Positions 1,303-45,848 of a stretch of 64,000 nt of DNA are shown here, in pieces; position 1 is the stretch's first letter, and every line of letters starts with the position of its first letter. The notes beneath the pieces are model-generated. The model was not told the origin of the DNA and ran no database searches. It worked only from the letters and a program-made list of their open reading frames with translations. The DNA is from Selaginella tamariscina (lineage: Eukaryota > Streptophyta > Lycopodiopsida > Selaginellales > Selaginellaceae), in assembly GCA_003024785.1 (NCBI GenBank), contig PUQB01000052.1, positions 618,375-682,374 of the forward strand, read 5' to 3'. Position numbers and translations under genes: made by a program.

Positions 1303-1806
1303 AATGTTAAGAAACGTTGATAAAGTTGATAACATTGATTAAGGATGTCTTTTGAAGCTTAAAGCAATTACAAAATATAATATATTTAATATTCATAATA
1401 ATAATTAACTCTTTAATAATAGTACCAAATTGTTTCCTTAAAATATATTTATAAAAAGATATGGAAGATTGCATATAGGATACCTCTCATGCTCTTTATA
1501 ACATTTATATTAATCCAACACAACCTTAAATATAATATATTATATAACTTAATACCTTCTACTTTTATAAAGTTATTAATTTTTTGTCCACCAATGTTAT
1601 AATTTACTAAAGGGTCAATTACATAAAAGAGAATGTTCTAAAGATATTCTATTCTTAAACATATATTTTAAAGAATATTCTTTCTTTAAACATATAATAT
1701 TTTAAAAAATATACCTTTAACATTAAAAGTACTAATTAAATCACTAAATTTGTTAATTATTAAGAAATGGGAGTATAGACATGCCCATTTTAGTTATAAC
1801 ATGTAT
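1303..1806 (+). mobile_element. Isolated right end of the TIR transposon
   Basis: This stretch is closely similar to 8430-9058 and 22690-23113, the DNA between the transposase-like gene and its terminal repeat. Shared landmarks are the ATATTTAATATTCATAAT block and the phrase ATGCCCATTTTAGTTATAAC at 1781-1800. The inner part of the element is missing, so this is a truncated end. It abuts an LTR fragment directly at 1804. Confidence 0.8.
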
Positions 1807-3330: not shown

Positions 3331-3429
3331 TTAACAACTGCGACAGGATCTATAATAATAATTATTCACATCATGGGTTTCAAAACCAAAAGTCAACCTA
3401 CTAACCAAGTTTAATGAGTCAAAGTCACA

Positions 3430-3975
3430 ATTTTGGGGATTCTTCTTTTTAAGGCACGTATCCAAATAGTTCACTAGCTCATCCATGGTATGGTATCAGA
3501 ATATGGGTCGAAAATGATTGGATGGATACAAGTAATGTTTTGGTTGAGCATAGCCTTCTAAGGAGAGTCATTTACCACTAAGATATGTGCGTTCTTCATT
3601 ATCCTTAACTGATTGATCTCCCTATGAAGCCCAATAATCTTTCATTCTTAAAGAAGTATAACTTGCTTTCTTTTTTTATATTGTGAAATTCAAGAGGTTT
3701 ATAACATATTCGCTGATCAAAAATCTAATCTTTACGAATCACCTCTTCTGCAACACTACAATGTTTCTTAAGCAAATTCAATAGCGATGTTAAGTTGTGA
3801 ATCTGCATGCATGGTGATAAAAAAACTAAAGTGGTCCCCATGATAACCATGTTTTGAGCTACATTTATCCATTTCTTACATGAACTCTGTCATTCTGACA
3901 TGTGGCACAAGAAAATTTTTGCCAAACCCCTCTCTTACCTCATGCCAATGCTGAAAATCCATGTTCTCAATTGTT
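3430..3975 (-). pseudogene. FCP1-homology (NIF-type HAD) protein remnant
   Basis: Reverse-strand homologue of the gene at 44132-45350. Recognisable pieces are the block that encodes CLKKKNLENFCEQ (near 3455), the block for the ILVVDDSPQK motif (near 3565-3595) and the 5' exon/intron start near 3900-3975. The central part with the DVNGVL motif is deleted. At about 3975 the remnant is fused directly to the 3' end of the methyltransferase-like gene, showing that the spacer of about 350 bp between them in the 44 kb copy has been lost here. Confidence 0.65.
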
Positions 3976-4680
3976 ATCTGATTGAAGATCGTCCTCAAAC
4001 TCCGACATTGAACCAGATTCGTCTTCAGAGCTATCACACTTCTCGGGAGGGAACTTTCCCAAATACTCCTGTATGGGTTTGTTGAGGTAGTTAGTTGAGA
4101 ACCTCTCTATCCACTTGTTCAGGTCCTCAACCATGGTCTTATCCTTTTTAACGGCAAACACACATGTATCTCGAAGGTAACACTCCTTCAAGACGGATCC
4201 CCTAATGCAGTAATCAAAAACCCATGCATCACTGTGAGGACCCTTGATCAAGTTGATGATGCTTGGTGTCACTTGACTTGTGATGTTTGAATAACGTACA
4301 TTGCCGAATATGTCCCTCTCAACTATCGATGTATCGGATGGAGGTTCATGCCTGTTGGAGTGCAAACAAATGTCTGGCTAGTCATTTAGAAGTTTGAAAT
4401 TGTTTGGCACATTCCTAACAACCAAGTGAACAGCCGTATCAATGCACTTGGGATCAGCATCGTTCATATAAAATCTTATCCAACAATGTCTATTCTTCAA
4501 CGATTTCCTACAAGCAATGATGTTACCCCATAAAGTCTCCAAATCCGACAATAAACATCTATAGGGCTTATCATCATTTGTAGCATCCTCCTTTATAAGG
4601 TTCAACTTAGTTCTCCGCTACTAAAGGACTGCCATAAGAGAAAGCGTCATCACAATGTTCTCCTTTTTGGCGTAGCTCAG
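3967..4680 (-). pseudogene. Methyltransferase-like C-terminal part of the transposon's ParB-like protein
   Basis: The minus-strand frame 4365-3967 includes SDAWVFDYCIRGSVLKECYL and VFAVKKDKTMVEDL. That arrangement resembles the FxGxG/ExD region of amino-methyltransferases, although the glycine loop is degenerate. The upstream frame 4605-4378 has LWGNIIACRK and FYMNDADPKCID. The acidic tail (SEDESGSMSEFEDDLQSDNN) is shared with the 43.7 kb copy. The two frames are offset, so at least one frameshift is present, and the N-terminal ParB-like half is missing. Methyltransferase identity is inferred from pattern and from the linked ParB-like motif in the 41-43 kb copy. Confidence 0.5.
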
Positions 4681-4889
4681 GAGTGACATTAAATTGGGTG
4701 TTATTATTTATAAGAAAGCATGGCACCTTCAGTGTTGTTTACAAGTATTATAAACAAATTTAAAAATACTTATAAAGATTCACTCTCTTACATTTTCTTT
4801 TAAAATTAGAATTTAGGAGTTTAGGAATGCATTAGGATTATATTATATTCCGTTAGGGATTTATCCCATTTAAACATCCTTCTTACTTA
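4681..4889. other. AT-rich non-coding spacer inside copy 1
   Basis: Separates the methyltransferase-like remnant from the palindromic array. No reading frame or repeat was recognised. Confidence 0.4.
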
Positions 4890-5480
4890 ATATTCTCGGT
4901 TAGCCGGGGTGGTGGAATTAATCCGACCATTTCTTTTTCGCCTTTTAGAAAAGGTGGTGGGATTAATTCTGCCACCATCTCTTTAATAACCATGATAGAA
5001 TTAGTTCAGGTAATGCTTCTTCACCTCTGAAAAAGAGCAGGGATTAATCCCGTCGATAACTCTCTTAACTGATGAAGAGTACCAGAATTTATTAGAAAGA
5101 ATTATTTACGGGATTAATCCCGCCAACCATTTTAGGAGGTAGAGAAGGTGGCGGAATTAATCTCACCTCCACTTCCCTATTTTAAAGATTTGTGAACAGG
5201 ATTTATCCCGCCGATTAGTTTCAAACGCAAAAAAGCATCGGCGGGATTAATCCCGCCACCCCCTTGAGATTTCTCCGAAGGAAATCATAGCTTCGAAGAG
5301 AGTTGTGGGCAGGATTAATCCCGCCACCTATTCTCCGTCGTGAGAGTTGTGGGTGGGATTAATCTCGCCGCCTCTTCCTCGTGGAAGGGTGCGGCGGGAT
5401 TAATCCCGCTGCCTTTCTCCGAAGGGGTAGCCGTTCCTCGTTAGAGGGAGTTGTGAGCTGGATTAATCCTGCCCATCAGT
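4890..5480. repeat. Palindromic array (about 11 units of GGCGGGATTAATCCCGCC)
   Basis: Units occur every 40-80 bp (near 4911, 4953, 5036, 5107, 5148, 5197, 5240, 5308, 5350, 5391, 5455). The copy at 5240-5257 is the exact 18-bp palindrome; others vary in the arms but keep GATTAATC or GATTTATC. The array is GC-rich in otherwise AT-rich DNA. It sits between the two oppositely oriented gene sets of the transposon, as in the 16.5 kb copy. Confidence 0.9.
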
Positions 5481-5639
5481 TGTATTAATCAAGCATGAGA
5501 TATTATCCCTTTGCATAATTATGTATTATTGCACATGCATATTATTAAGCACCTGCAATTCAGATTTCTTAGAAATATTGCATAAACAGATATCATAAAT
5601 AACATAATTATTTATGTGCATAACAATATATTTAATAAT

Positions 5640-8395
5640 AGAGATAAAGTATGTCTTCTTTAGAACAACGAGATAGTTAGCATTGAAATTGCGGAAGTTC
5701 GAGATGATAATGCATCATGTCACAATATTGCCAAGGATCTTGTGTGTACATATGGATGAACACCATTTGCAAGCATGTTGAGGTTCCATGAATGGAATTT
5801 GATGAGGGTTCTCATGTATTATGGAATTTGAATGAAGTCAAGGTTGACACAAAATATGTAGAGTCACAAACAAATAACAACACGAGTTCACTAGATGATG
5901 GCTTGCCTGCTGTGATGGATGAGGTGATTCTCTTTCTTCATAAGATTGAGGTTGGGAGAGGCATCATCACATCTATAAATCCAATGAAAGTAGTGTCAGA
6001 AGAGAAACTAGGGGACGACTTGTGGGTGTAGTTGTGATAGAGGTTTCACCTAATGGCACATTACATCCTGGATCCCTCGTGAGTGGCGAACATCTGAATT
6101 AAGACAAAGATGGTTCAACATATTCTGGGTTGGATTTCAATAATAACAACCCGGAAGAACAACTCATATTTGAAGAGGTTCCTTGCATTGGTCCTATTGT
6201 AAGAAAAAGGCGATTCATGGGTTGTAGATCTTCCCCTGCAAGTTTCAGCAAGAGGGTCAAGATGGATCCTACATCTTCCGAAAGTGTTACGAGCATTCCA
6301 TAATTGACTGCTGCAAGAAGAAGTGTTGTCAGATGGCAGACCGGAATGAAATTACCCAATGTAGACATGTCTTTCGTATGCTCACCCAAAAGCAAAGGCA
6401 TGAGTTTATATATGCTCACTAACTGGGTGTATTGATGGAATGCCTCGGACACAGGTTATCAGAGTACATCCATGGTATTTAATAAGGTGGCCATCTGCTT
6501 CAAAGCTTGGTACATATATACGGGATCCCAAAGACCACGTTCGGAGGGATGAGTGGCTAGATGGAGCGCGAACCTCAGTACATGGGAACACTCGCTTGGT
6601 CAAAACCCGCTCTCACATTATGGCAGCCATAGAGATACTCAAGGCTTTTGTGGAAGCAAATGCAAATGCAGACAGGATGCCTCACAAATGCCGAACCACA
6701 AATGCAGGGGTCAGGGAAAATCTCAAGGTTTTGCCTTCAATCTACACTCAATTGAAGCTGTGTGAACATGTGAACAAGTGCCTCAGTTTGATGGGCTGCA
6801 AGCAATCTGCACTGGTACCTTCAACAACATATGGAATACTCATTTTAAGGATGTGGAGATTGCAAAACACTTAGCTTTTCCAAGTGTGACACTTATACAT
6901 CATTGAAGGCTGTAGAGGCTTGTGCAAAAACCTTGGTGGAGATCACTGCCATTCAAAAGAAGATGGAGGCCCACATGATTGCACAACAAACTTGTCGGTC
7001 AGTACTATGCACACCGCATGCTTTCTGTGTCACACACATAGTACCTGTGCTTGATCCATGACAAGATGGATCATTCAAAAACCAACATTCAAAGCTCGTG
7101 CAACACCAAAGTGCCTTGGAAATGTCATGAAACTTCCGATTTCATTGACATGTGTGCTAACACATGGACACGGTTAATGCTCTCATGAACACATCTGCAC
7201 TTGAGGCTACTTGGGAATATGAGAGGCATTGTCAGCAGCTTGCATAAAAAATAGATGGCCCTGTTGAGAGTTCTAGTTCAATGGAGGGATCTAACTCAAA
7301 TAGTGTATATGTGTTCTCAACATCATCATCATTTGCTTTTATAGATGGATAATTGTGCAGGCGAGAACAAAAATAGGTAAATCATTGTAGTTAAGGGTTT
7401 CTTAAGCTCATACTTACTTTTATTTTTTAAATATGTACTAGCATATTTGTCAATGCTTGTTCTCAAAGGTGTGTTTGAGATAATCATGCTCAGTTTCCTT
7501 ATGGTTAGTCACACTCATGAAGATATTGATGTGTTTTTTAACAAGGTTTCCAACTTTAAAAAATGAAGAAGTGCACTTACCTTACTGCATATGATGGATC
7601 TTTTTGAAAATTGCATCTCCAAAAAAAGTTGTGCTTTTCTTGTGATTGAGGTGCCAAACTTCAAAAAGTTTCTCAATGAGTATAAAAAGAGGGGAGCGAT
7701 TCTTTAGTTGGTCACCTTGTGCCGCTACAATTCTTTTTACCGAATTACCAAAAGAGGGCTTAATGCTATTCAAAAGTGGAGAGGATGGAAAGCCACTTCT
7801 CCTAGAAGGACAACCAGACCCTATTCCATTGAGTGCCCATCTCAAGAAACAAGAGTTTATTATTAATGGCATCAAAAAATATGTGGCATGTGTTCAAAAA
7901 TCAATGCCAAAGAATTCTGATAAGGCAATTAGTTACTCAGAATTATATAAGTATGTGGTCGACTATTGGGAGACTGTTGTTCAAGAGTTAGAAAGGCCTA
8001 CTGTCACAAGTATAGAATTGCAACACCCTTTTTGGCGTAAAACAAGGTGGCAAGAGGAGATTGAAATGACAACACTGAGCACAGATGACATAGAAGCCAG
8101 TAATGATGTGGAAGTGCAAACCCCACACTTTGTTAGACAAAGGAACCAAAAACCTAAAGCATACTTTGATTGTTGTAAAGATCTTCAAAAACTAATGATG
8201 GTTCTCATCACTCAAGATGTGTCATATAATCAACCTATTTGGATGGGTCAAATTATCGACACGCCTGAAGTAATGACAAAAAATAGTATGATTAAGGTTG
8301 CATGGTTCAAACTACAAAAAAGGCAACATGAGAAGGAGAGCGAAAGATATAATGAATGCCTAAAGAAAACATAGTCTCCCAATCAAAAAGACCCA
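5640..8395 (+). pseudogene. DUF7869-like transposase candidate, copy 1
   Basis: Decayed gene read in several frames from about 5650 to the stop at 8372-8374. The N-terminal exon has MEFDEGSHVLWNLNEVKVD. It is followed by a block with FxxRRDEWLDGA near 6540 and a cysteine-bearing block (KCDTC) near 6880. The core has LLQMDNCAGENKNR-type sequence near 7330-7375 and VSHTHEDIDVFFNKV near 7505-7550. The C-terminal 242 codons (7646-8374) are the best preserved part in the window and include PIWMGQIIDTPEV. The Asp in QMDNC, the Glu/Asp in HTHEDID and an earlier Asp (LIHDKMDHSK) could form an RNase H-like triad. The QMDNC...HTHEDID wording is how I recognise the uncharacterised DUF7869 family. A transposase role is inferred from its place in a TIR element. 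Confidence 0.65.
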
Positions 8396-8655
8396 GCATG
8401 TTTTATAAATGTTAAATCCATTTGATATGGGTGGATGTCAAGAAGCATTGATAAAGTCACGATTAACAAAACTACAAGAGAATGTATGTTTTCTAAAGCT
8501 TAAAGCAATTACAAAATTATAAAATATTGTATATTTAATATTCATAATTATAATAAACTTTAATAATAGTACCAAATTGTTTACTTAACTATATAAATTT
8601 ATAAAAAGATATGGAAGATTGACTATATTATTATAGGATTTTGTATATATATATA

Positions 8656-8694
<39 letters not shown>

Positions 8695-9058
8695 CTAGTA
8701 CAAATTTTTAATTAATGTTATATTTAAATATTAATATTTTAATAACAACATCAATATTTATATAATGTACCTCTTATGCTCTTCTTGAATTCTTATATTA
8801 GGCCCACACAATCTTAAATATAATATATTATATAATTTAATACCTTCTACTTTATAATATTATTAATTTTTGGTCCAAAAATGCTATAATTTATTAAAAG
8901 GTCAATTACAAAATAGAATATTCTAAAGAATATCCTATCTTCAAACATATATTCTAAAGAATATTTTTTAATATTAGAAAATGCTAATTAAATAGCTAAA
9001 ATTGTTAATTATTATGAAATGGGACTATAGACATGCCCATTTTAGTTATAACTTGCAT
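8396..9058 (+). mobile_element. Right subterminal region and terminal repeat of copy 1
   Basis: AT-rich DNA with no reading frame, matching 1303-1806 and 22690-23113. It includes a TA-dinucleotide microsatellite at about 8646-8692. The terminal repeat is 9031-9058 (ATGCCCATTTTAGTTATAAC, then TTGCAT). Confidence 0.8.
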
Positions 9059-12000
9059 ATTGAAACAATTGACTTTTTGTGCAACATCAAGAAAAACATT
9101 CTCGACAAGTATTCCCTACTCCAACTCCAATAATGCAAGAGCCATCAGCCACTTTATTTTCTGATGCTGAACCAATGTAAGTAGATGTTTTTGATCATGA
9201 GGGTCATTGACACAAACTAAGAAACAATGACATCTTCAAGCAAACTTGTGTTTATATTGTGGTAAGACAAACACTGAATTGCTAGGTGCCCAAATCAATA
9301 ATGAATTCAAGCTAAGGTGGTGGATGATCTCTTAGCTGCTAAGAAACGAAAAGTTCAAGTTCGAATAGGAGCATTCTAATTAGTTGTTTCTGCTCTAACT
9401 TTTGTTCCATCTTCTCTTTGACTCCTAGCCGTATTTCGACAACTCTGACTTTTGGTAATATCTCTACAACTCTGACTCATGGTCATATTTTGGCACCTCC
9501 GGTTCTTGGTAGCACTTTTGCATCTCCATCTTTGGCTCGACGCCAACCTCAACTTTGAGTTTGACTCAAATTTTCACTCCAATCTTAACTCCAACTATGA
9601 TTTTGACTTTGTCTCCAACTTTGATCACGACTCCAGCCCAACAATGTCTTGCATCTCCAATAGCATCAATTCCAACTTTGACTTTGACTTTGACAACATC
9701 TCCAATCCGTATTTTGACTATTTCATTGGCAAAATTTATGTGTTAGCTATACTCAACTCGACACAGTTTTTGCAATGATGGTGACTTTGCTCTTAGTTCC
9801 TTGCCGTCTACATACCACGAGTTTATGATGTATTTGACAAAAGGTTCAAGCCAGTCGTCTTCCTAAACATCGTTTGTATGATTGTTCGATTGATACTATT
9901 AAAGGTAAGATGCCTTCGTTTGGTTTGATCTATGGTCAGTCTCCACTCAAGCTTGAAGCTTTACGGGAATACATCATCTACAACATGGCTACAAGTTTTA
10001 TTAATTATTCCAAATCTCCAATTAGTGCCTCTATCTTCTTCATCAACAAAAAGGTTGGCTTTCTTTGATTGATGATTGACTATCGTGAGTTGAACAAATC
10101 ATCATTCATAATACTTTTTACCTCCGATATATAATGCTTCATATGCGCCATGGTGATGAATGAAAGACTACTTTTTGTACACGCTATGGGTATTTTGAGT
10201 TTACAGTGATGCCTTTCAATTTAACTAATGCCCCTGCAATTTTTTAGCATATGGCCAATAACATTTTTTTGCAACTTTCTTTATTAGTTTGTGATTATTT
10301 ACTTGAATGACATCTTTATTTTTTTGAAGATGGTGAAAGAACATTAGCAACACGTCCATCAGTTCTTAAAAGACTTCGATAGCATGGTTTTTACACCAAG
10401 TTGGGGAAGTGTCGGTTTCATCGGGAATAGGCTGAGTTTCTAGGATATGTGGTGTTATGCATTGAAATCTCCATGGACCCAGCCAAGGTGTGCACAATTC
10501 TTAAGTGGGAAATGTTGAAGTCAACTCAAGACGTCCGTTGTTTCTTCAACTTTGTTAATTTTTATTGACACTTCATCAAGGACTTTTCCAAAATTGTGCT
10601 TTCATTGAATCAACTCACCAAGAATGAGGTTTTGTCCAAGTGGTTTATGGATGCTAAGAACATGTTTATCACACTCAAGTTTGCTTTTACCTCGGCTCCG
10701 ATCTTGCTTCACCCTGACCCAGCGAGACCCTTTGTGATGAAGACAAATGTGGCTGACTTTGCTTTGGGTGGTATTTTTTGAAGGCTCCCCGCACAAGGTA
10801 AGTTTCACTAATCATCAGAACTTGGTTTACTTCTCTCATGCTCAAATTTTGAATTGACGTCAAACTTATTAGACCCATTAGATCTTCTCTCGGTTCAACT
10901 TCGAGATCAAGTATTGACCCGGCACTTAGCAAGTTCAATCCGATGCACTTTCTCAACGAGCATATTTGGTGACATCAAATTTGACCAACAAAAGCAAGTA
11001 GTACTTAGTCTGGAACACCTCCAAGCACTCACTATTCCTATTGCACCTTTCAACTATGGCCTTCTTGACAATATCCATTTGATCTCATTTCCAATCTATT
11101 GGCCCAGAATATCTTGAGTCACCTTGCAAGTAACAACACTCCATCCGTCTCACAACCTGACTATAATTTGTTCGAATTTGTCAATAGTCTGCTTCTTCAT
11201 AATGACTTGGTTTATATTCCACCAGGTGATGCTCGACTTCAAGTGCTACAATCTCATCACAAAGCTCCACTAGTTGGTCACTTTTGGTGTTACGGAAATA
11301 ATAGAACTAAGTTATAACTATTGGTGGCCCCAACTATGCAATCAATGGAAGAGTTTATTCATACTTGTGACATTTGTGACATTTGTGCTTGCTCTAAAAT
11401 TCCTTGTCATTGTCCATATGGTTCCTCCAATTGCTTCCAACTCCAATAACGCCTTGGTCTTGCATCTTGATGAACTTTATGACTGATTTACTGCCAATTC
11501 AAGTATTTAACACTATTCTTGTGGTCGTGGATCGTCTTACTCTTCCTACCATGCATGACTATCTCCAAAAAGAGACAATTGACTTAGTTATGAATGACGT
11601 TTTTCAGCTATATGGACTTCCCGACAATATTGTCAGCAGTCGTGGTCCGTAGTTTATCACCAAGTTATGGCAATAACTTCTCGAACTACTCAAGATTAAA
11701 AGGTCATTATCTTTAGGTTATCATCCAGAATATGATGGTCAATCAAAACACATTATCTAAACCCTCAAATAATATTTATGGTGCTTCATCAATTACCAAC
11801 AGAATGATTGGTTATTGCTACTGCCCTTAACTAAGTTCTCTTATAACAACTCCAATCCAAGCATGCATTAAATTGTATGTCACCTTTCTATGCCTTGACG
11901 TCAAGTCAACAGTTTTGATACTCTCGGGAGTTTGATACATTCATCTTACGAAGATCAACTTGACCGTTTTTAGTTTGTCCATCAACATCTTTTGGAACCA

Positions 12001-12498
12001 AAAAAAACATCAAAAGACAGTTACCAATTTATATTGTAAAGACAATCCAGTTTATTAGGTTGGTGAACAAGTCTGACTTTTTTATGCAACATTAAGACTA
12101 CATGACCTTGTGGAAAGTTCAACTATCAACACCTCAGTCCATTTTTAGTGGGCATCTTGTATTAATGATGTGCTTATTGGTTAGATCTTCTTCTTCAATA
12201 CACATTCATTTAGTATTCCATGTTTCTTTTCTTGAGTGTACCATCCGAAAATGCTCCTTGGCCGAACTTTACCACCCCTAACTCCAATTATAAATTGATA
12301 ATGATTTGAAATATGAAGTCAACAAAACCTTGAACTCCAAATTCTTCGCCACCGACTTATTACTTAATCGATTGGGCTGGCTACCCTTCAAGTGAATGTT
12401 CTTAGGAGCCCACAACAAATCTGCAACTCGCTCACGATGTTGTTAACGAGTTTCATCGCAGGTATCCAAACAAGCCCAATCTCGAAAGAGGAGAGTAA
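9059..12498 (+). pseudogene. Decayed Ty3/gypsy gag-pol
   Basis: Begins immediately after the transposon end. Near 9240 a broken zinc knuckle reads LCLYCGK. 9370-9770 is a low-complexity linker with repeated Asn/Phe/Asp or Thr/Leu codons. Reverse transcriptase pieces follow: IDYRELNK near 10075, YTRYGYFEFTVMPFNLTNAP near 10180, and a YLDDI-type block near 10300. RNase H shows FTSAPILLHPDPARPFV near 10680. Integrase shows LYGLPDNIVSSRGP near 11610 and a GYHPEYDGQSK block near 11720. A weak chromodomain-like tail lies at 12310-12470. Stops and shifts occur throughout, so it is long dead. Confidence 0.8.
12485..12498 (+). promoter_or_regulatory. Polypurine tract before the 3' LTR
   Basis: AAAGAGGAGAGTAA directly precedes the LTR start TGTGACAATTTG at 12499, the expected position of a plus-strand primer in gypsy elements. 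Confidence 0.6.
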
Positions 12499-12830
12499 TG
12501 TGACAATTTGACTATGTCACACAGATATGGATATAGATATGGATAAGAATATGGATAATGATATGCATAATGATATGGATAGGGATATGGTAATATGAAT
12601 AAGGATCATTAAAGTTAATGAAGTCTAAGATAACTGTACGAATAGGGATAAGGGTCACTAAATTTAGCTAAATAGCTAAGACCATTTTTGGCTTTTCTTA
12701 TAGTATATAAGAGTAGATAAAATTCAAGTTAAGCATTTGGATTCAACACTACTTAGGAGTTAAACCTCTTGTTTTATTTCAATCTTTGTAATTTAACTTA
12801 TTTCATGTCTTTTTGACTTGGTTCTTAGCA
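12499..12830 (+). mobile_element. 3' LTR of the left gypsy element
   Basis: Starts TGTGAC after the polypurine tract and contains TATAGTATATAAGAG as a likely TATA box. It ends near TTCTTAGCA at about 12829. From 12540 onward it matches 1804-2038. Short ATGGATA-type repeats fill its first 100 bp. Confidence 0.7.
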
Positions 12831-12839
12831 AGAAGTTTT

Positions 12840-13060
12840 AATACAATTGTTCACTTATTGTTAAGAACCTGCCAAATAACTTTATCCTCTTGAACAAGTG
12901 GAAAGGTGTTTGCTTTCATTTGAACATGCATGTAGTGCACCGCCAACCATAGGAAGCGTCGTCTTCAATAATGTAATTTATTTTAGACATTACATGTGCG
13001 CTATTGCACAAAGTATCGTGGACTTAGTCAAGGGTCCCTTAGAGTCCAACAATGGGTATG
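12840..13060 (+). pseudogene. Diverged fragment of the methyltransferase-like gene
   Basis: Nucleotide-level resemblance to 43315-43530: TTCACTTATTGTTAAGAAC then GCCAAATAACTTT parallels the block encoding HLVVRNAPNFKL. Further on, SIVDLVKGP parallels SIVNLIRGP. It is much more diverged than the other copies, suggesting an older insertion or a sister family. No intact reading frame. Confidence 0.4.
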
Positions 13061-13254
13061 CTAAAATGAGTGCTACATCCAGGAAACAAGAGTATTTTAC
13101 TGAACATGCAAAACTATTTAGTTATCTTATATATAATTTATTAAATTGTGTTAGATGTGTAGGAAAAAGCACAACACTCCTTGTACATTGTCTGTGTATA
13201 TGCTAGATGTTTAATAAACCAACAATTATATGACAAAACCCAGTTGTAGCCCAA

Positions 13255-13695
13255 CAAGAAGTCTCTTTCTTTCTCAAGAGAAAGAGACTTAGATATGCAT
13301 TTATATAATTTATTTATGCACAACTATAGTCCAACACAATAACACAAACACATTAAAACTTATACATTCTCTATTTAGAGAGACTTGAATTTGTATTTAC
13401 AATAATGTATTTAAATCACAAATATTTATGCACAATTATAACACACCAATAACTCAAAACATATATAATTCAAACACTGTTAAAACTTTCACATTTTCTT
13501 TGTATCTTTAGAGGGACTAGATATGCATTTACAATAAGGTATTTAATTTACAAGACAAGCATATTTATAACCCAACAATAGCAACTAACAATGTATATAA
13601 TTCAAACTCATTAAAACTTTTCATTCTCTCTCTAGAAAAAGAAAAATAACCTTGTACTTAAATCAACAAGTTAATCTTATTTATGCACACAAACA
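13255..13695. repeat. Degenerate tandem repeat, about four units of roughly 95-130 bp
   Basis: Each unit pairs a CTCTCTxxAGAGAGACT block (near 13265, 13372, 13505, 13630) with an AT-rich stretch carrying ATTTATGCACAA and ACACATTAAAACT. The CTCT/AGAG halves could form small hairpins. No coding sequence. Confidence 0.6.
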
Positions 13696-13868
13696 AATAT
13701 GTAGGGAGCACACTTATTTGTACATGTGATACAGTGATGAACAAAAATATATAAGTTTAAGTTTTCCACTCCCACAGCTCGCAATGTTCACATGTTGTCA
13801 TTGTCATTTCTTGGTGTTGTTCATACACACAAAAGCTCATATGCATGTTGTAACTAAAATGGGCATGA

Positions 13869-14760
13869 TACATGAAATGGGAATATAAAATAAATTGTTA
13901 ATTAATACTTAAGTTTTTAATTATTAATTAATTATTTAATAAATATATAATTAAACCTTAAATATTAATTAATTAACAAATTAATCCTTCATTAACCTTA
14001 CTTAGTAAGGAATATTCCTAAAATATCTTAGAATATTCATATTATTTTTCATTGTAAAAATAGTTTACAATAATTAAAAAATATTATCAAACATAATTAC
14101 AAATGAAATCATTTCCTTATCAACCTGTTAATCTATTTGTAAATACTTCACCTTAATTATATAGAAAAATCTCCTCATTTTGTTTAAGTCATCATTTTTT
14201 GAATTAATCGAACCGTTTTGGTCAATATCTTTATATTGTTGCCACCACCTAACACTCTCACGAATGCAATTAAGAGTTGCCATCCTTGTTAATATATCAA
14301 TCATGATAAAAACAAAAGTGCATAAAGGCTTATATAAAAAATGATGTTCCTTAATAATAATATTGTAGAGTGCCTGGTTGCTCTCTTTTAATGATTCAAG
14401 AATATGGGTCGAAAGTGGTTGGATAGATACAAGCAATGTTTTGGTTAAGCATAGCCTTCTGAGGAGAGTCGTCTACCACTAAGATATGTGCGTTCTTCAT
14501 TATCCTTAATTGATTAATCTCCCTATGAAGCCCAATTAATCTTTCATTCTTGAAGAAGTATGGCTTGCTTTCTTTTTTTATATTATGAAATTCGAGAGGT
14601 TTATAATATATTCGCTGGTCAAAAATCTAATTCTTTACGAATCACCTCTTCTGCAACACTACAAGTTTCTTAAGCAAATTCAGCAGCGGTGTCAAGTTGT
14701 GAATCTGCATGAATGACCAAATCTTCACAAGTGTTTTAAAAGAGATGGTTCAACCTAGGA
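13869..14760 (-). pseudogene. FCP1-like remnant with internal deletion
   Basis: The C-terminal end is readable at 14436-14128 (ESNQALYNIIIKEHHF, ESVRWWQQYKDIDQN). At about 14400 it jumps to the block for the DPYS and DDSPQK region, losing the coding for the LVNYLD and CEQYPP segment. Upstream code runs to about 14707, followed by 5' untranslated sequence that matches 19130-19210 in reverse. The AT-rich DNA 13869-14105 is the subterminal region. Confidence 0.65.
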
Positions 14761-14867
14761 CGAAAATGATATCATATCATAGCTAGCCTTATAATTATCA
14801 AGGTATATTATTTACCTTGTTAATGTGTGACCCATGTTTGAACTAAAAGCTTCATTAATCCTTGAGA

Positions 14868-16500
14868 TCCTTGTTTCTTCACTTTGAGATTACTAATAGG
14901 ATTTGTTTATGAGTGGGCTTCAAGGTTTCTGAAACACATGGCCAATGACCCAATAGTGAAATTGGAGTCGCTAGACCAATGTGAAAGTGAAAAGTGTCCA
15001 TATGATTCACAATCGTGTCCATGTGTTAGCACACCTATCAAATGAAATCAGAAGTTTCATGACATTTCCAAGGCACTTTGGTGTTGCAACGAGCTTTGGA
15101 ATGCTAGTCTTTGAATGATCCATCTTGTCATGGATCCATCTTCTTTTGAATGGCAGTGATCTCCACAAAGATTTTTGCACAAGCCTCTATAGTCTTCAAT
15201 AATGTACAAGTGTCACACTTGGAAAAGCTTAGAGTGTTTTACAATCTCCACATCCTTAAAAATGAGTATTCCATATGTTGTTGAAGGTACTAGTGCAGAT
15301 TGCTTGGAGCCCCATCAAACTAAGGCACTTGTTCACATGTTCACACAGCTTCAATTGAGTGTAGATTGAAGGCAAAACCTTGAGATTTTCCCTAACCCCT
15401 ACATTTGTGGTTCGGCATTTGTGAGCACCATCTACATTGCTTTTTGAGTATCTCTATGGCTGCCATAATGTGAGAGCAAGTTTTGACCAAGTAAATGTTC
15501 CCATGTATTGAGGTTCACACTCCATCTAGCCACTCATCCCTTTGACGTAGAACATGGTCTTTGGGATCCCATATATACTGTACCAAGCTTTGAAGCAGAT
15601 AGCCACCTTATTAAATACCATGGATGTACTCTGATAACCTGTATCCGAGGCCATTCCATCAATACACCCAGTTAGTGCAGTATACAAACTCATGCCTTTG
15701 CTTTTGGGTGAGCGTACGAAAGACATGTCTACATTGGGTAATTTCATTTCGGTCTGCATCTGATAACACTTCTTCTTGCAGCAATCAATCGTGAAAATGC
15801 TCATAACACTTTCGGAAGATGTAGGATCCATCTTGACCCTCTTGTTGAAACTTGGAAATTTTAACCCATGAATCACCTTCTTTTTTTTTATAATAGGACC
15901 AATGCAAGGAACCTCTTCAAATATGAATTATTCTTCCGAGTTGTTATTATTAAAATCCAACCCAGAATATGTAGAACCATCTTGCCGTCTTAATTTAGAT
16001 GTTCCCCACCTCACGAGGGATCCACGATGCAATGTGCCATTAAGTGAAACCTCTATCACAACGACACCCATAAAGTCAGCCCTTAGTTTCTCTTCTGACA
16101 CTGCTTCCATTGGATTTATAGCTGTGATGATGCCTCATCCATCACAGCAGCAAGCCATCATTTTGTGAAATCGTGCTACTATTTGTTTGTGATCTGCATA
16201 TTCTATGTCAGCCTTGACTTCATCCAAATTCACAATATAAAAAACCCTCCTCAAATTCCATTATCAGAACCTCAACATGCTTGTAATGGTGTTCACCACG
16301 TACACACAAGATTTGGGCAATATTGTGACATGATGCATTATTATCTCGAACTTCCACTTCAGTGCCAACTATCTCGTTGTTCCAAAGAAGACATACTTTA
16401 TCTCCAGTATTAAACATATTGTCTTGCACATAAATAATTGTGTTATTTGTAATATTGTTTATGCAATATGTGGGAATGATATGCATGTGCAATAATTATG
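14868..16500 (-). pseudogene. DUF7869-like gene, N-terminal two thirds, copy 2
   Basis: Reads from the N-terminal exon at 16492 (VQDNMFNTGDKVCLLWNNEI, then VGTEVEVRD) through 15876-15526 (MIHGLKFPSFNKRVKMD, MASDTGYQSTSMVFNKVAIC) to the KxxDxCxS/MDHSK region. It stops at about 14868, where it joins FCP1-side sequence. The QMDNC and HTHEDID blocks are missing, so any catalytic centre is lost. The N-terminal GDKVCLLWNNEIVGTEV patch looks like a small beta-barrel (Tudor/SH3-like) element, but this is only an impression. Confidence 0.6.
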
Positions 16501-16534
16501 TATAGGGATAATATCTCATGCTTGATTAATACAA

Positions 16535-16800
16535 CTGATTGGCAGGATTAATCCCGCCCATGGCTCCCTCCGACGAGGAACAATGAGCAGGATTAATCCC
16601 GCCGCCGATTCTACCCCTTCGGAGAGAATCGGCGGGATTAATCCTGTGCCGATTTCTCTCCAGCGAGGAAGAATTGGCGGAATTAATCCCGACTGCCGAA
16701 TCTTCCTCGTCAGAGAGAGGCGGCAGGATTAATCTCGCTGCGGACTCCCTCCGACGAGGAAAGCGGCAGGATTAATCCCACTGCGGACTCCCTCTGACGA
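16535..16800. repeat. Palindromic array, six units
   Basis: GATTAATCC-centred units near 16541, 16589, 16630, 16674, 16722 and 16764, separated by spacers of the CTCCCTCCGACGAGGAA type. It is the same family as the arrays at 4.9 and 39.5 kb, but with a different spacer from the 39.5 kb array. It lies upstream of both flanking genes. Confidence 0.85.
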
Positions 16801-17495
16801 TTAATTTCTTATTATTTCAAGAATATTCCAATTGTTAAACCTTATTATCAATATTAAATTAATATATATTATTAAAACTATATATGGCTATATATTAGAT
16901 AAAATCATAATATTATATGTATAATTTAAAATATGTTCATAGTGTGTTTATTAATATTATTTTCTTAATTATTCAATGTTTGTTTTGCACACATATAAAC
17001 ACAGTCATAAATTTATCTATACACATGCACACGCATTAGAAGCACTCACAGAGACACATATGCACACATATGCACAAGCCGATGAGTGGATCACAATATA
17101 AATAAAGCATTTAGCTTTGTATTTATAATATAAAGTTTTAAAAACCAAAACCAAATTATATATTTACACACTCTACACTAAGACTTACATATGTTTAGTG
17201 TTTAGAGTAAATAATTAAAAAAATGTGTGCATTTCGTTTTATATTAGTATAAAGTTTTATACTATATATATATTATGTACCTAAAATTTTATAATAAAAT
17301 ACTTGCATTTGGTTTAAACCTTAAACCAAACTGGAGAAATATGTTGCTTCTTTATTAAAAACATCATGTTCAAAGCATCTATGATTTATATGTACTCAGT
17401 CTGTGTGTATATAACACATTGAATTTACACATGTAATATGTATGTATATCTGTGTGTATGTATATATGTGTACTAATATATGCAATGTGTACGAT
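16797..17495 (+). mobile_element. Approx. 0.7 kb AT-rich non-coding repeat
   Basis: Matches 45850-46495 in reverse orientation over most of its length (shared landmarks: TTTGTTTTGCACACATATA, AAGCCGATGAGTGGATCA, AACACATTGAATTTACACAT). No reading frame. It separates the palindromic array from the methyltransferase-like remnant and replaces that gene's 5' half, which points to insertion plus deletion. It is probably a non-autonomous element; its exact ends were not resolved. Confidence 0.55.
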
Positions 17496-19045
17496 ATGGG
17501 AGAAGTTTAAACACACGCAGTCGTGTGGGAAACTCTTGAGCAACCACAAGAGCTACTGTAGGGAAAGAACAATGTTCAAACTACTGACAAGTGAAGGGGA
17601 GCCCTCAGAGAAGTCTGCAAAGAAACCTAGTAAGATGCGAATGCTAAGTCTGTTCAATCTACAAAGATGTAGACAACGATTTCAAGCTCACATAGTTGAA
17701 GCCTTTAAATGGAACAACGATGGAGGAGATGGAAGTCTTGGCTGATTTGGTGATTGATGGCAAACTACAGATTAACAACAACAGCCCCACCTCTCTTTTC
17801 ATCTCAAGGCAATGGAGTTGAAGACGGTCAGGCACTTCAAGGAGTGGTTGGGAATACACTGCCACAAACTGGGTTGGACCTCGGCTTCAACATACGAAGA
17901 GGTCAGCAAATATTTGCATGTGACAAACGATGATATGCTTGTCGAATGGGTGAATCAATCGAAGATCTGGGCAAGAATCTATTGCACGCCAACGAAAAAG
18001 GAGAACATTGATGACGCTCTTATGGCAGTCCTTCAGCAGCGGAGAACCGAGTTGAACCTTATAAAGGAGGATGCTACGAATCACGACAAGCCCTACATAT
18101 TTTGTTGATTCGGAGACTTTATGGGGTAACATCACTGCTTGTAGGAAACCGTTTCAATTGTTCGTGATGGATCGGCGGTGTCAAAAAATCCTTCGACAGA
18201 TAGGCACTAGAGGATTTGGTGGAGAAACTTAGCCGTGCAAGCATGTACAAAGAAGGTATTTATTATTGAATTCATGCTTGCACTCTTCACTGATACCTAC
18301 GTTTTCAGGTATTTATTTCTTGATTCTTGCTCATGTCACCGATACTTTGCCTTGCCTTCGCCTTGCCAAGAAGAATAACATCGTTGGACAGGATTTTATA
18401 TGAATGATGCTGATCCAAGTGCATTGATACGGTTGTTCACTTGGTTGTTAGGAATGCGCCAAACAATTTAAACTTCCAAATGACTGGCCAGGCATCTGTT
18501 TGCACTCCAACGGCCTGAACCTCCATCCGATACACCGATAGCTGAGAGGGACGTATTCGGCAATGTACGTTATCCAAACATACAAGTCAAGCGGCACGGA
18601 GCATCGTCAACTTGATCAGGGGTCCTCACAGTGATGCATGGGTTTTTGACTACTGCACTAGGGGGTCCGTCTTGAAGGAGTGTTACCTTCGGGATACATG
18701 TGTGTTTGCCGTTGAAAAGGATAAGACCATGGTTGAGGACCTGAACAAGTGGATAGAGGTTCTCAACTGACTACCCCAACAAACCCATACAGGAGTATTT
18801 GAGAAAGTTCCCTCCGAGAAGTGCGATAGCTCAAGATGAATCTGGTTCAATGTCGGAGTCTGAGGACGAACTTCAATCAGATATTAGACCGGAAGTTATC
18901 TCGAGGAGTACAAACATTCACAACTCCATTACCCATGGAAACATCAACAAAGATACGGAAGATCATGAAATCTCCAAGCGGCTTAGACCTTCTTCGCCTC
19001 ACTCAGAAGGTAATAGCGAAGAAGAATTGTTAATGAGTTCTTAGA
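17495..19045 (+). pseudogene. ParB-like/methyltransferase-like protein, C-terminal half, copy 2
   Basis: Homologous to 42150-43931. The readable parts include a Lys-rich linker, ELKTVRHFKEWLGIHCHKLG, TYEEVSKYLHVTNDDMLVEW, the FYMNDAD block near 18400, and the methyltransferase-like patch (AWVFDYC, GSVLKECYL, VEKDKTMVEDL) near 18635-18760. The acidic/serine tail ends in EEELLMSS at 19042. Frameshifts occur near 18100 and 18590, and the ParB-like N-terminal half is absent. Confidence 0.55.
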
Positions 19046-19215
19046 GTGACGAATAGTTGTAAATGAGTGTAACATAAGGCATTTTTGTATATTTCGTTTA
19101 TATTTGTACAGAAAATAAATTCTCAAGGATTAATGAAGCTTTTAGTTCAAACATGGGTCACACATTAACAAGGTAAATAATATACCTTGATAATTATAAG
19201 GTCAGCTAACTATCA

Positions 19216-20232
19216 TTTTGCAGATGTAATGAAACAGTTGAGAACATGGATTTTCAGCATTGCCATGAGGTAAGAGAGGGGTTTGGCAAAAATTTCTTGT
19301 GCCACATGTCAGAATAATACAAGTTCATGCAGGAAATGGATAATAATGCAGCTCAAAACATTGTTACCATGGGGATCACTTCAGTTTCTAAAATCACTTT
19401 CTTAGCGCCTACAATATCTGAATCTTATAAGGATGATGTACAATTAAATGATAAAGGGATAGGCAATGATATAGTGTCAACAGATAAATGTGAAAGGGAG
19501 CAAACAAGTGAGTTGCAAAGCATTCAAGAGGCAACGCTACCCCATGTTACCATGGCCATATTGTGTTGTTGGATGTCAATGGTGTTCTGCTTCATCGACA
19601 AAGGCCCGAGGATAGGAAAAAAAGAAATCAAACAAGGAGATTTCATTCCTTGTCATGGTAAATTTCGATATGATATCATTTTTTCGTCAGGGTTGGACCG
19701 TCTCTTTCAAAAGCTTAAGGAGATGGGTGCATTGTGGGGATTTGGTCATGCATGCAATTCACAACTTGACACCGTTGCGAATTTGCTTAAGATTCGTAAA
19801 GATTGGATTTTTGACCACGAATATGTTATAAATTTCTTGAATTTCATAATATAAGAAAGGAAGCAAGCATACTTCTTCAAGAATGAAAGATTAATTGGGC
19901 TTCATGGGGAGATCAATCAGTTAAGGATAATGAAGAACACACATATCTTAGTGGTAGATGACTCTCCTCAGAAGGCTATGCTTAACCAAAACATTGCTTG
20001 TATTTATCCAATCACTTTTGACCCATATTCTAATACCAATACCATGAATGAGCTAGTGAACTACTTGGATATGTGCCTCAGAAAGAAGAATCTCGAAAAC
20101 TTTTGTGAGCAGTATCCACCATATCAAATATTTTTTGATGCTTTTCTTTCTCATGATTTTAAGTTTTATAAAATGAAGAATAACAACCGGGCGTTTTACA
20201 ATATTATTGTTAAGGAACGTCATTTTTTAGTA
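19216..20232 (+). pseudogene. FCP1-homology phosphatase-like gene, copy 2
   Basis: The first exon begins at an ATG near 19244 and splices (GT at 19270, AG near 19332) to EMDNNAAQN. Downstream are the DVNGVL motif region near 19575-19590 (out of frame with the upstream frame), GLDRLFQKLKEMG near 19695, and KDWIFDHEYV near 19799. The final HAD motif, ILVVDDSPQKAMLNQN, lies near 19945-19995, followed by YLDMCLRKKNLENFCEQYPP. The C-terminus runs into the terminal repeat. Relative to the 44 kb copy it has lost the CSVAEEV segment. Confidence 0.65.
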
Positions 20233-20261
20233 TCATGCCCATTTTAGTTACAACGTGCATT

Positions 20262-22690
20262 ATTATAAAAGGTGATTCATGGGTTGCAGATCTTCCCCTG
20301 CAAGTTTCGGCAAAAGGGTCAAGATGGATTACATCTTTAGCAAGTGTTACTAACATTTCCACGATTGACTGTTGTAAGAAGAAGTGTTGTTAGATGGCAG
20401 ACAGAAATGAAATTACCCAATGTAGACATGTATTCGTATGCTCACCCAAAAGCAAAGGCATGAGTTTGTATATGCTGCACTAACTGGGTGTATTGATGGA
20501 ATGGCCTTGGACACAGGTTATCAAAGTACATCCATGGTATTTAATAAGGTGGCCATCAGATTCTACTTCAAAGCTTGGTATAGTATATATGGGATCCCAA
20601 AGACCACGTTCTACCATCGGAGGGATGAGTGGCTAGATGGAGCGTGAACCTCATACATGGGAACACTCGCCTGGTTAAAAATCACTTTCACATTATGGAA
20701 GCCATAGAGATACTCAAGGTTTTTGTGGAAGCAAATGCAGACAGGATGCCTTACAAATGCTGAATCACGAATGCAAAGGTCAGGGAAAATCTCAAAGTTT
20801 TGCCTTCAATCTACACTCAATTGAAGCTATGTGTACATGTGAACAGTACCTCAGTTTGATGGGGCTTCAAGCAATCTACACTAGTACCTTCAACAACATA
20901 TGAAATACTCATTTTAAGGATGTGGAGATTGCAAAACACTCTAGCTTTTCCAAGTGTGACACTTGTACATCATTGAAGGCTGTAGAGGCTTGTGTAAAAA
21001 CCTTGGTGGAGATCACTGCCATTCAAAGAAGATAAAGGCCCACATGATTGCACAACAAACTTGCCAGTCTCAGTACTATGCACACCGCATGCTTTCTGTG
21101 TCACGCCATCAAAATACATGTGCTTGATCCATGACAAGATGGATCATTCAAAGACCAACATTCCAAGGCTCATTGCAACACCAAAGTGCCTTGGAAATGT
21201 TATGAAACTTCGATTTCATTGACAGGTGTGCTAACACATGGACACGGTTGTGAGTCATATGGACACTTTTCACTTCCACATTGGTCTAGCGACTCCAATT
21301 TCACTATTGGGTCGTTGGCCATGTGTTTCAGAAACCTTGAAGCCCACTCACAACAAGTCCTATCAGTGATCTCAAAGTGAAGAAACAACACCTTCAACCT
21401 TTACATAATGCTCTCATGAACACATCTGCACTTGAGGCTACTTGGGAATATGAGAGGCATTGTCAGCAGCCTGCACAAAAAACATGGCCCTGTTGAGAGT
21501 TCAGGTTCAGTGGAGGGATCTAGCTCAAATAGTGTACATGTGTCCTCAACATCAAATAAGCTTCCTCGTCATTTGCTTTTACAGATGGATAATTGTGCAG
21601 GCGAGAACAAAAATAGGTAAATCATTTTACTTAAGGGTTTCTCAAGCTCATACTTACTTTTATTTTCTAGATATGTGCTAGCATACTTGTCAATGCTTGT
21701 TGCCAAAGGTGTGTTTGAGACAATCACGCTCAGTTTCCTTATGGTTGGTCACACTCATGAAGATATTGATGCGTTCTTCAGCAAGGTCTCCAACTCTACA
21801 AAAAGGACAAGTGCACTTACCTTACATATGATGAATCTTTTTGAAAATTGCATCTCCAAAAAAAGTTGTGCTTTGCTTGTGACTGAGGTGCCAACTTCAA
21901 AAAAGTTTCTCAAGGAGTATATAAAAGAGGGGAGTGATTCTTTAGTTGGTCACCTTGTGCCGTACAATTCTTTTTCTCCATAAGAGATGGTATACCTATT
22001 ATGCAGTACAAGTTACGGCCATCAAGCATGAGCTGAAAGAGGGTTAATGCTCTTTAAAAGTGGAGAATGCCATTCTCCCAGAAGGACAACTAGACCCTAT
22101 TCCATTGAGTGCCCAGCTCAAGAACAAGAGGTTATTATTGATGGCATCAAAAAATATGTGGCATGTATTCAAAAGTCGATGTCAAAGAATTCTGATAAGG
22201 CAATTAATTACTCAGAATTATATAAACATGTGGTCAACTATTAGGAAACTATTGTTTGAGAGTTAGAAGGACCTATTATCACAAGTACAGAATTACAACA
22301 CCTTTTTTTGCCTAAAACAAGGTGATGAGAGGAGATTGAAATAACATTAATGAGCACAGATGACATAGAAGTCAGTAGTGCAAACCCCACACTTTGTTAG
22401 ATAAAGAAACTAAAAACTTAAAGCATACTTTTATTGTTGTAAGGATCTTCAAAAATTAGTGATCGTCCTCATTACTTTAATGTGTCATATAATTAGCCTA
22501 TTTGGATGGGTCAAATTATCGACACATCTGAAGTTATCACAAAAAAATAATATGGTTAAGGTTGTTGGTTCAAACTACAAAAAAGGCAACATGAGAAGGA
22601 GAGAGAAAAATATAATGAATGCCTAGAGAAAACATGGTCTCTCAATCAAAAAGACCCAGCATGTTTTAAATCCATTCAATATGGAAACAT
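20262..22690 (+). pseudogene. DUF7869-like transposase candidate, copy 3
   Basis: Begins abruptly at a point equivalent to 6207 in copy 1, right after the terminal repeat of copy 2. Readable parts are AALTGCIDGMALDTGYQSTS near 20470, RRDEWLDGA near 20620, and HGHGCESYGHFSLPHWSSDS near 21240. The catalytic-looking core QMDNCAGENKNR lies near 21585-21620, and GHTHEDIDAFFSKV near 21745-21790. An intron with GT/AG ends appears to separate NKNR from YVLAYLSMLVAKGVF (about 21617-21669). The C-terminal part (22050-22660) is frameshifted. This is the best copy for the central region. Confidence 0.65.
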
Positions 22691-23113
22691 TGATTATAAG
22701 ATTTTGTATATTATATATATATATTATTACTAGTACAAATTTTTAATTAATGTTATATTTAAATATTAATATTTTAATAATAACATCAATATTTATATAA
22801 TGTACCTCTCATGCTCTTTAATATTTTTATATTAGGCCCATACAATATTAAATATAATATATTATATAACTTAATACCTTTTACTTTTATAATGTTATTA
22901 ATTTTTAGTCCATGAATACTATAATTTATTAAAGGTTAATTACAAAAATAGAATTCGAAAGACTTCAAACATATATTTTAAAAAATATTCTTTCTTTAAA
23001 CATGTATTATTTTAAAGAATATTTCTTTAATATTAGAAAATACTAATTAAATAATTAAAATTGTTAATTATTAAGAAATGGAACTATAGAAATACCTATT
23101 TTAGTTACATGCA
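22691..23113 (+). mobile_element. Right end of the TIR transposon attached to copy 3
   Basis: AT-rich DNA matching 8430-9058 and 1303-1806, ending in a degenerate terminal repeat at 23091-23113 (ACCTATTTTAGTTACATGCA). Confidence 0.75.
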
Positions 23114-27857: not shown

Positions 27858-28537
27858 GTATGCATGTTGTAATTAAAATGGGCATGATACGTGAAAATGA
27901 GAATATAAAATAAATTGTTAATTAATACATAAGTTTTAATTATTAATTAATTATTTAATTAATATGTAAATAAGTCTTAAATTAATTAATTAATAATTAA
28001 TCCTTCAATAACCTTACTTAATAAGGAATATTTTTAAATTATTTTAGAATATTCATATTATTCTTCGTTTTAAAAATAGTTTACAATAATTAAAAAAATA
28101 CTATCAAACATAATTACAAATGAAATCATTTTCTTATTAACATGTTAATTTATTTATAAATACTTTCTTCCTAACCATACAAAGAAATCTCCTCATTTTA
28201 TTTAAATCATCACTCTCCGAATTAATTGAATCATTTTGGTCAATATCTGGATGTTGTTGCCACCACCTAACACTTTTATGAATGCGAGTTGCCATCCTTG
28301 TTAATATATAAGATGTGATAAGATCAGGTCTACATAGAGGTTCATCTAAAAAATGACGTTTCTTAAGAATAATATTGTAAAGCACTCGGTTATTATCTTT
28401 CATTTTATAAAACTCAAAATCATGAGAAAGAAAAGGTCAAAAAATGTTTGATATGGTGGATACTGCTCACAAAAGTTTTCGAGATTCTTCTTTTTAAGGC
28501 ACGTGTCCAAGTAGTTCACTAGCTTATCTATGGTATT
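27858..28537 (-). mobile_element. FCP1-side end of the TIR transposon, cut by an LTR
   Basis: Terminal repeat at 27860-27887 (TGTTGTAATTAAAATGGGCA), AT-rich subterminal DNA, then the minus-strand C-terminal part of the FCP1-like gene at 28403-28137 (KDNNRVLYNIILKKRHFLDE, ESDDLNKMRRFL). The CLKKKNLENFCEQYPPYQTF block lies near 28440-28510. The gene is interrupted at 28538 by an LTR. Confidence 0.75.
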
Positions 28538-40520: not shown

Positions 40521-40857
40521 TCCATGTGAATATATATGTGTATTAGTATATATAAGTTGCATATCTCATTTTATTTACTTTTATCATCTTATCATAATAT
40601 TTCGAGTAAAAGCTAGGAATCTATGTAAAACTGTCCAGAGCTCACATTTGTGGTGGTTCTAAAACGAAATGTTATCTTTCTTTTGCACTAGCACAAATGT
40701 GAGCTTTGGACAGTTAATTCCGTCCACTTCTCTCTGTGTATTATTTTTGTATATTCGGGTTTATACAAGTGTGTGTGCGTTTTTATATGATTTGTATTCA
40801 TAGTGTATTATTTTGCAGAAGGACGATTTAATTAAACAAGGAGATCGAGTCATTAGT
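40521..40857. other. Short leader between array and ParB-like gene
   Basis: AT-rich. It contains an inverted pair: AACTGTCCAGAGCTCACATT at 40629-40648 and, about 40 bp on, AATGTGAGCTTTGGACAGTT at 40696-40715, a stem of about 20 bp with two mismatches. It may be part of the promoter or leader. Confidence 0.55.
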
Positions 40858-45840: not shown

Positions 45841-45848
45841 ACAAATTA

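Follow-up and report, generated by a model that had tools for sequence, protein, structure and literature searches.

What are the repeated fragments scattered over a 64,000-nucleotide stretch of the Selaginella tamariscina genome (contig PUQB01000052.1, positions 618,375 to 682,374, hereafter the window), and do the genes they carry belong together? A sequence-only reading had assigned the pieces between positions 3340 and 23113, and others further downstream, to one transposon family with terminal inverted repeats (TIRs), carrying an FCP1-like phosphatase gene, a ParB/methyltransferase-like gene (hereafter the second gene) and a DUF7869-like transposase candidate. We find that the window holds broken copies of a large cut-and-paste transposon family, fairly young and with about 2,000 ends in the host genome. 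Our preferred reading, to which we give a probability of about 0.82, is that of a high-copy cut-and-paste DNA transposon of about 10-15 kb, with the DUF7869 gene on its right and the FCP1-like and second genes on its left, all within the TIRs.

Ends, target sites and complete copies

Three patterns were counted across the host assembly (300.7 Mb in 1,391 contigs). The left-end pattern matched 2,428 times (1,220 + 1,208; at most two mismatches), the right-end pattern 2,235 times (1,147 + 1,088; at most three) and a pattern for the third DUF7869 motif 2,105 times (1,052 + 1,053; at most three), while the reversed control of each gave no match. Sequence searches returned at least 47 matches for the right end, from the best 40 of 2,392 candidates, and at least 79 for the left end, from the best 40 of 2,480. 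If every end belonged to a complete copy (about 2,200-2,400 ends, at about 14 kb per copy), roughly a tenth of the assembly would consist of this family, an upper bound because many ends are fragments.

The TIRs are about 27 bp long and nearly identical at both ends, 5'-ATGCA[C/T/A]GTTGTAACTAAAATGGGCATG. They bound three of three complete copies and ten of ten further end pairs, although all 13 were picked by end sequence, so that the presence of TIRs is partly a matter of selection. On contigs C1-C24 there are 23 perfect left-end matches, at least 11 of which have a correctly oriented right end at 11.8-15.4 kb; this is a lower bound because the right-end list covered up to one mismatch. In at least seven of these 11 pairs, counting perfect matches only, a DUF7869 motif lies 1,552-1,562 bp inside the right end.

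Target-site duplications (TSDs) were sought in the three complete copies and in the flanks of 10 of the 11 end pairs. An exact 4-bp duplication is present in seven of these 13 copies (ATGT, TTAT, TAAT, TCTT, ACTT, GTGC and ATGT), against 4 of 156 unpaired control flanks, and one further copy shows a near-match (C824, ATAT/GTAT). Lengths of 2, 3 and 5-8 bp gave 0 or 1 of 13. In its TIRs and fixed-length TSD, the family agrees with a Class II cut-and-paste transposon; the full copies with target-site duplications that the earlier reading proposed to look for do exist.

The complete copies came from 20 stretches that were fetched around listed ends and then searched for either end and for the three proteins. 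Both ends were found in one pair of stretches (C511) and in one single stretch (C824), the other 17 (each at most 10 kb) having one kind of end only, two of them twice; a third copy, C1018, was added after a left/right pair was seen in the end lists. Between their TIR ends these copies measure 11,825 bp (C511), 9,711 bp (C824) and 15,337 bp (C1018). They were chosen for having both ends, and all three present the same order: left TIR, FCP1-like gene (-), second gene (-), array or arrays of palindromes, DUF7869 gene (+), right TIR. The single architecture with genes reading outward, as first proposed from broken pieces, is thus found within one TIR pair, and the proviso that the ends might stem from different elements, checked on these copies, did not overturn it. 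The proposed central array needs amending: arrays there are, but C511 and C1018 each have two (7 and 8 sites, and 11 and 13 sites), one before each divergent gene, while in C824 only the array before the DUF7869 gene, with 7 sites, was seen. The AT-rich middle that separates the two arrays of C511 and C1018 (25.6-26.3% GC) has longest frames of 76-161 amino acids, mostly simple repeats, and the middle is 83-87% alike between copies over 2.2-2.4 kb.

Samples of 3 kb taken inward from left ends (L056-L060, from the head of the perfect-match list rather than at random) are unbroken through the FCP1-like gene into the second gene in five of five cases, and 96.1-99.3% alike. In three shorter or multi-end samples (L053-L055), left ends stand side by side, in tandem or with internal deletions. 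Four right-end fragments (L003, L004, L005 and L006, on C573, C403, C213 and C1207) have an identical outer flank, and the right end there therefore seems to have been re-multiplied inside another repeat. On C306, C1305 and C1369, right and left ends about 11.2 kb apart face away from each other, alike in all three, perhaps one duplicated locus or haplotypes. Retrotransposon-like frames, Gypsy-type by eye, occur in the same stretches as family copies in L030, L034 and L027.

C-to-T decay that is highest at CG and CHG sites is a mark of plant CG/CHG methylation. Eleven DUF7869 copies show 934 changes from their majority sequence, of which 679 are C>T or G>A and 80 are A>G or T>C; with slightly stricter columns the former count is 645 of 892, at rates of 0.119 at CG, 0.096 at CHG and 0.036 at CHH. 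The left-half alignment (17 rows) gives 874 of 1,399, with 0.097, 0.077 and 0.034 respectively. Together with the near-identical samples, this context pattern indicates that the family is fairly young and abundant, and that it was methylated.

The three genes

In an uninterrupted genomic frame of 356 amino acids (L056), the FCP1-like protein matches the NIF domain (PF03031) at 5.1e-12, with 46.2 bits against a curated cut-off of 21.8, and residues 82-266 cover positions 2-155 of the 160-position profile. The FCP1-like identity is borne out by this match. FCP1/SCP phosphatases of the HAD class have a classical DxDx catalytic signature with a second Asp. Here the signature reads DVNGV, with Asn in place of that Asp in 16 of 16 rows, representing 12 distinct loci, and catalysis may thus have been lost. 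As read from its sequence, the protein carries a NIF domain, and we use 'FCP1-like' for the domain and not for the catalytic class. Sequence comparison with solved structures gave chance-level matches only.

Is this gene maintained? Compared over 309 codons, the majority sequences of older and younger copies differ by 17.5 synonymous changes and 14.5 nonsynonymous ones, a ratio of nonsynonymous to synonymous change (pN/pS) of 0.20 (p = 4e-6), with C824 grouped among the older copies and C1018 among the younger. C824 is 98.1% like window copy F, and thus nearer the young set; in a column-wise computation that reassigns or omits C824 and C1018, pN/pS is 0.21-0.24 (p from 1.1e-5 to 3.3e-5; four groupings altogether). 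The FCP1-like gene is under purifying selection between subfamilies, and its motifs are kept in copies that lost much else.

The ParB/methyltransferase identity given to the second gene found no support in Pfam, PHROGs, the PDB or hhalign. With Pfam at E-values up to 10, no ParB or methyltransferase family appeared; the best models for the ParB-like part, DUF3879 (0.051) and DUF6551 (0.086), are far below cut-off, and the ParB comparison was limited to Pfam models. The best PHROG match (0.12) is not significant, the PDB search returned nothing relevant, and no homologue was found in a set of 5.8 billion proteins. Aligned with hhalign to 10 N6/N4 DNA methyltransferases (E. coli YhdJ and nine phage proteins), the methyltransferase-like part reached a probability of 0.1 and the ParB-like part 0.2, against 0.0-0.5 for 20 shuffles. 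Where such enzymes would show DPPY and DPFxGSGT, the protein reads LDSETLWG and FDYCTRGS. Since the profile searches are negative, what speaks for the labels is resemblance at the level of motifs.

The DUF7869 identity was confirmed by Pfam, at 1.5e-6 and 6.9e-23 in copy D of the window and 2.3e-13 in copy B. Three motifs are conserved across copies, HDKMDHSK, LQMDNCAGENKN and GHTHEDID, and their Asp residues may form a D-D-D site. Two unnamed proteins of the 5.8-billion set, with no genomic context, are 43% and 40% identical to the DUF7869 protein; both share its Cys motif near the N-terminus as well as its first D motif, and stop short of the second D motif. The N-terminal part weakly resembles Transposase_23 (TNP1/EN/SPM), at E-values of 0.07-0.15 in four readings, below the curated cut-off. 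The longest uninterrupted frame of the gene, 536 amino acids, lies in L023 (C1285, 1856-3463, -) and is out of frame at the second D motif. A literature search, mostly without reach into subscription journals, found no paper naming DUF7869, and none on a DUF7869 transposon or an FCP1-like cargo. The family would give DUF7869 a clear context, as a gene beside the TIR of a transposon that duplicates 4 bp.

Copies and other features of the window

Aligned against itself, the window shows repeat pieces at 1.3-1.8, 3.4-9.06, 13.8-20.26, 20.27-23.1, 27.9-28.5 and 39.2-45.65 kb, about 76-94% identical to one another, so the broken copies lie where they had been placed. Mapped onto the complete copy C1018, the pieces fall into separate broken copies, and positions 3340-23113 are therefore several copies and not one element. 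The stretch at 13.8-20.3 kb, taken earlier for one copy, does belong to the family but consists of a left-end piece and a separate, reversed copy. No copy in the window is complete, complete copies being found elsewhere in the same assembly. The features are as follows:

1442..1806 (+), right-end fragment, outer TIR near 1800-1806 (self-alignment, TIR match, mapping to C1018 over 1442-1799)
3425-9058, copy B overall, running from the FCP1 tail through a piece of the second gene and the array to the DUF7869 gene and the right end; no left end
3425..3975 (-), copy B, pieces of the 3' part of the FCP1-like gene, 89.6-90.9% identical to C1018, with motif LRIMKNAHILVVNDSP
3975..4673 (-), copy B, a stretch of the second gene, ParB/methyltransferase-like by motif only (mapping to C1018)
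4856..5407 (no strand), copy B, palindrome array of 7 GGGATTAATCCC-type sites
5590..8374 (+), copy B, DUF7869 gene, broken, domain inside 7381-7563 (Pfam match as above; extent approximate)
8430..9058 (+), copy B, right end, whose TIR has its outer side at 9058
13841..14870 (+), left-end fragment comprising the TIR, an AT-rich subterminal stretch and the tail of the FCP1-like gene (gene on -)
14871-20260, copy C overall, reversed: DUF7869 part, array, middle, second gene, FCP1-like gene and left TIR; no right end
14871..16495 (-), copy C, 5' part of the DUF7869 gene
16544..16779 (no strand), copy C, palindrome array of 5 sites
16800..17495 (no strand), AT-rich middle of copy C, conserved
17588..20227 (+), copy C, part of the second gene followed by the FCP1-like gene
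20228..20260 (-), left TIR of copy C, directly adjoining as the result of an internal deletion (minus-strand TIR match at 20254)
20267..23109 (+), copy D, right end preceded by the DUF7869 gene, whose domain falls within 21546-21932 (Pfam matches as above)
27860..28542 (+), left-end fragment (end search, TIR match, mapping to C1018)
39197-45649, copy F overall: array, second gene, FCP1-like gene and left end; no DUF7869 gene
39506..40511 (no strand), copy F, palindrome array of 16 sites
40857..43930 (+), copy F, second gene, interrupted by frameshifts and intron-like gaps (limits approximate)
44132..45200 (+), FCP1-like gene of copy F, matching NIF inside 44427-44702 (Pfam 7.3e-5; 3' limit approximate)
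45201..45649 (-), left end of copy F, whose TIR has its outer side at 45649
45650..46527 (+), part of the middle of a further copy, just outside F (mapping to C1018)

With up to one mismatch allowed, the window contains 28 sites of the palindrome GGGATTAATCCC, against 0.13 expected by shuffling; copy B has a cluster of 7, copy C one of 5 and copy F one of 16. Copy F stands among the young copies (96.6-98.8% to L054 and L056-L060); B, C and D are more diverged, at 90.1-94.3% to other copies over the DUF7869 gene. Since F is bordered by the middle of a different copy (45650-46527), it seems to be nested there; a 48-bp tandem array at 45652-45836, just outside the left end of F, belongs to that surrounding middle.

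Close to the right end of copy D, an EMP70 (endomembrane protein 70) gene is represented by its C-terminal part (23676-24173, -; 1.9e-59). The frame at 29009-30228 (-) matches Chromo at 1.5e-10 and, below cut-off, the integrase core at 4.3e-4; we take it to be the remnant of a chromodomain Gypsy-type retrotransposon. A 43-bp tandem repeat is found at 28930-29175, and plant-type telomere-like motifs (TTTAGGG) were seen. Duplicated segments, 66-88% alike, lie in 34300-63900 (34.4-38.6, 50.0-55.2, 56.7-61.1 and 61.3-63.9 kb, the later ones at a spacing of about 5.9 kb), and the single frame scanned there (59516-60070, -) gave no Pfam match. Most of the uninterrupted frames scanned with Pfam, 10 in each of two sets, had no significant match, and Rfam gave none in the window at gathering scores. 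The idea of a glycosyltransferase at 48177-48827 was dropped, Pfam giving it no support.

Competing explanations, function and known systems

Several observations weigh against the preferred reading. Twelve of the 23 perfect left ends have no right end within 16 kb among the matches listed (three have one at 22-27 kb, nine none), and the exact 4-bp TSD is missing in six of 13 copies, C824 being near and five lacking it. All DUF7869 readings examined are broken, those of complete copies included (longest + frames 120, 330 and 262 amino acids), as is that of a sample from C14 (L081); some of the frameshifts may stem from errors in the assembly. For the second gene, the signs of selection differ between exons, with a pN/pS of 0.21-0.25 (p 0.012-0.06) in one and of 0.56-0.78 (p 0.18-0.43) in the other.

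Could the architecture be an illusion, with one element carrying the FCP1-like and second genes and a different one the DUF7869 gene, joined only in appearance by mutual insertion? Window copies never have both ends, left and right pieces adjoin, and nesting is real, F lying inside the middle of another copy; yet three of three complete copies hold all genes within one TIR pair, the same TIR stands on both ends, the ends pair at 11.8-15.4 kb and seven of 13 pairs are surrounded by exact 4-bp duplications, which makes this very improbable. An integrated virus or virus-derived element would account for the large size, the ParB/methyltransferase idea had a viral flavour, and viral names appear among the weak matches at chance level (Herpes_UL95 at 0.09; an adenovirus protein at an E-value of 1.5). 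Against it stand the TIRs, the 4-bp duplication and the roughly 2,000 ends, as well as the lack of any significant PHROG match for the second gene or viral family in Pfam scans of the element's frames; a scan of IMG/VR with two alignments yielded 64 and 12 pattern matches, among which tblastn found no relative. We regard a viral origin as the least credible of the alternatives.

The alternatives that touch only the left-side genes deserve more weight, though neither seems likely. These genes might be functionless passengers, captured once and carried along by the transposase: the second gene has no convincing domain match, one of its exons shows no clear selection, and the Asn of DVNGV (four of the 16 rows repeat a locus) may have cost the protein its activity, if the Asp has its usual role. 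The strongly synonymous codon changes of the FCP1-like gene and the survival of its motifs in otherwise eroded copies make us doubt this. That the second gene joins a ParB-type domain to a degenerate DNA methyltransferase, marking the element's own DNA, is suggested by resemblance at the motif level, R-x-L-N-x-E-x-V followed by YIISGQHTITAAQRL, with a late GPHSDAWVFDYCTRGS, and VFDYCTRGS; the negative Pfam, PHROGs and PDB searches, and hhalign scores at shuffle level, leave it doubtful too.

How would a single transposon of this kind work? On the best-supported reading, transposition is by cut-and-paste: the DUF7869 protein would act as transposase, its catalytic acids lying in HDKMD, QMDNC..ENKN and HTHEDID, and would bind the TIRs and make 4-bp staggered cuts at the target. 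The palindrome arrays may be promoter-side binding sites; an array before each head-to-head gene suggests shared control by a palindrome-binding protein, perhaps the element's own second protein. The two left-side genes could be cargo that raises transposition or counters silencing, and the target of the phosphatase-like protein could be RNA polymerase II or a silencing factor, perhaps a phosphorylated one. A role in expression or in anti-silencing would fit a gene under selection in a family that is methylated and spreads fast. We can tentatively imagine, without thinking it likely, that the element spread to about 2,000 copies helped by an RNA-polymerase-II-phosphatase-like protein of its own, together with a DNA-binding partner recognising the arrays, and so stayed transcribed despite CG/CHG methylation, which would be a new kind of anti-silencing cargo.

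To which known transposons does the family compare? It had been described as no standard transposon type. This holds for the cargo; the frame, with its TIRs, 4-bp duplication and D/D/D-like motifs, fits the known superfamily Sola, whose transposases have a DDD-type catalytic triad. A Sola-like frame is our best reading, drawn from the TSD length and the motifs rather than from Sola protein sequences. Sola2-type families have TIRs of 12-13 bp, an 888-amino-acid transposase and AT-rich 4-bp TSDs, a TSD length common to them and the present family (PMC3627910), and PMC9033089 includes a Physcomitrella Sola1 in its listing for plants. The present family, at 10-15 kb and with two extra genes, is well above the mean of 5,445 bp given for curated bivalve Sola1 elements in PMC10294476.

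The weak resemblance of the N-terminal part of the DUF7869 protein to Transposase_23 recalls En/Spm (CACTA) elements. Those elements have CACTA termini and a 2-3-bp TSD, whereas here the termini read ATGCA..., the TSD is 4 bp and the main domain is DUF7869, which places the family outside CACTA.

Also comparable are cut-and-paste elements with accessory genes that may act on silencing: PMC12730594 describes fungal DNA transposons carrying TET/JBP, the plant Vandal (MuDR) with a protein that regulates the element's own silencing, and HarbingerS and MuDR with SET methyltransferases, which differ from the present family in transposases, TSD lengths and cargo. The word phosphatase does not occur in the main text of that paper on accessory-gene transposons. 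KolobokP likewise pairs a DDD/E transposase with a captured enzyme, a His-Me nuclease and not a phosphatase, but is composite-like, has long terminal direct repeats and lives in animals, according to PMC9587614. Mariner elements of algal viruses also carry cargo enzymes, with methyltransferase and endonuclease genes (PMC3627910); their transposase is another one, and a methyltransferase is not confirmed in the present family. Few transposons bring along enzymes of epigenetic control, and those that do illustrate how mobile DNA evades being silenced. What is new here is the cargo: a phosphatase-like gene kept by selection, together with a second gene, is an unusual load for a cut-and-paste element. 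A selected FCP1-type gene in a young family of about 2,000 ends would, if true, represent both a new class of cargo and a ready-made natural experiment.

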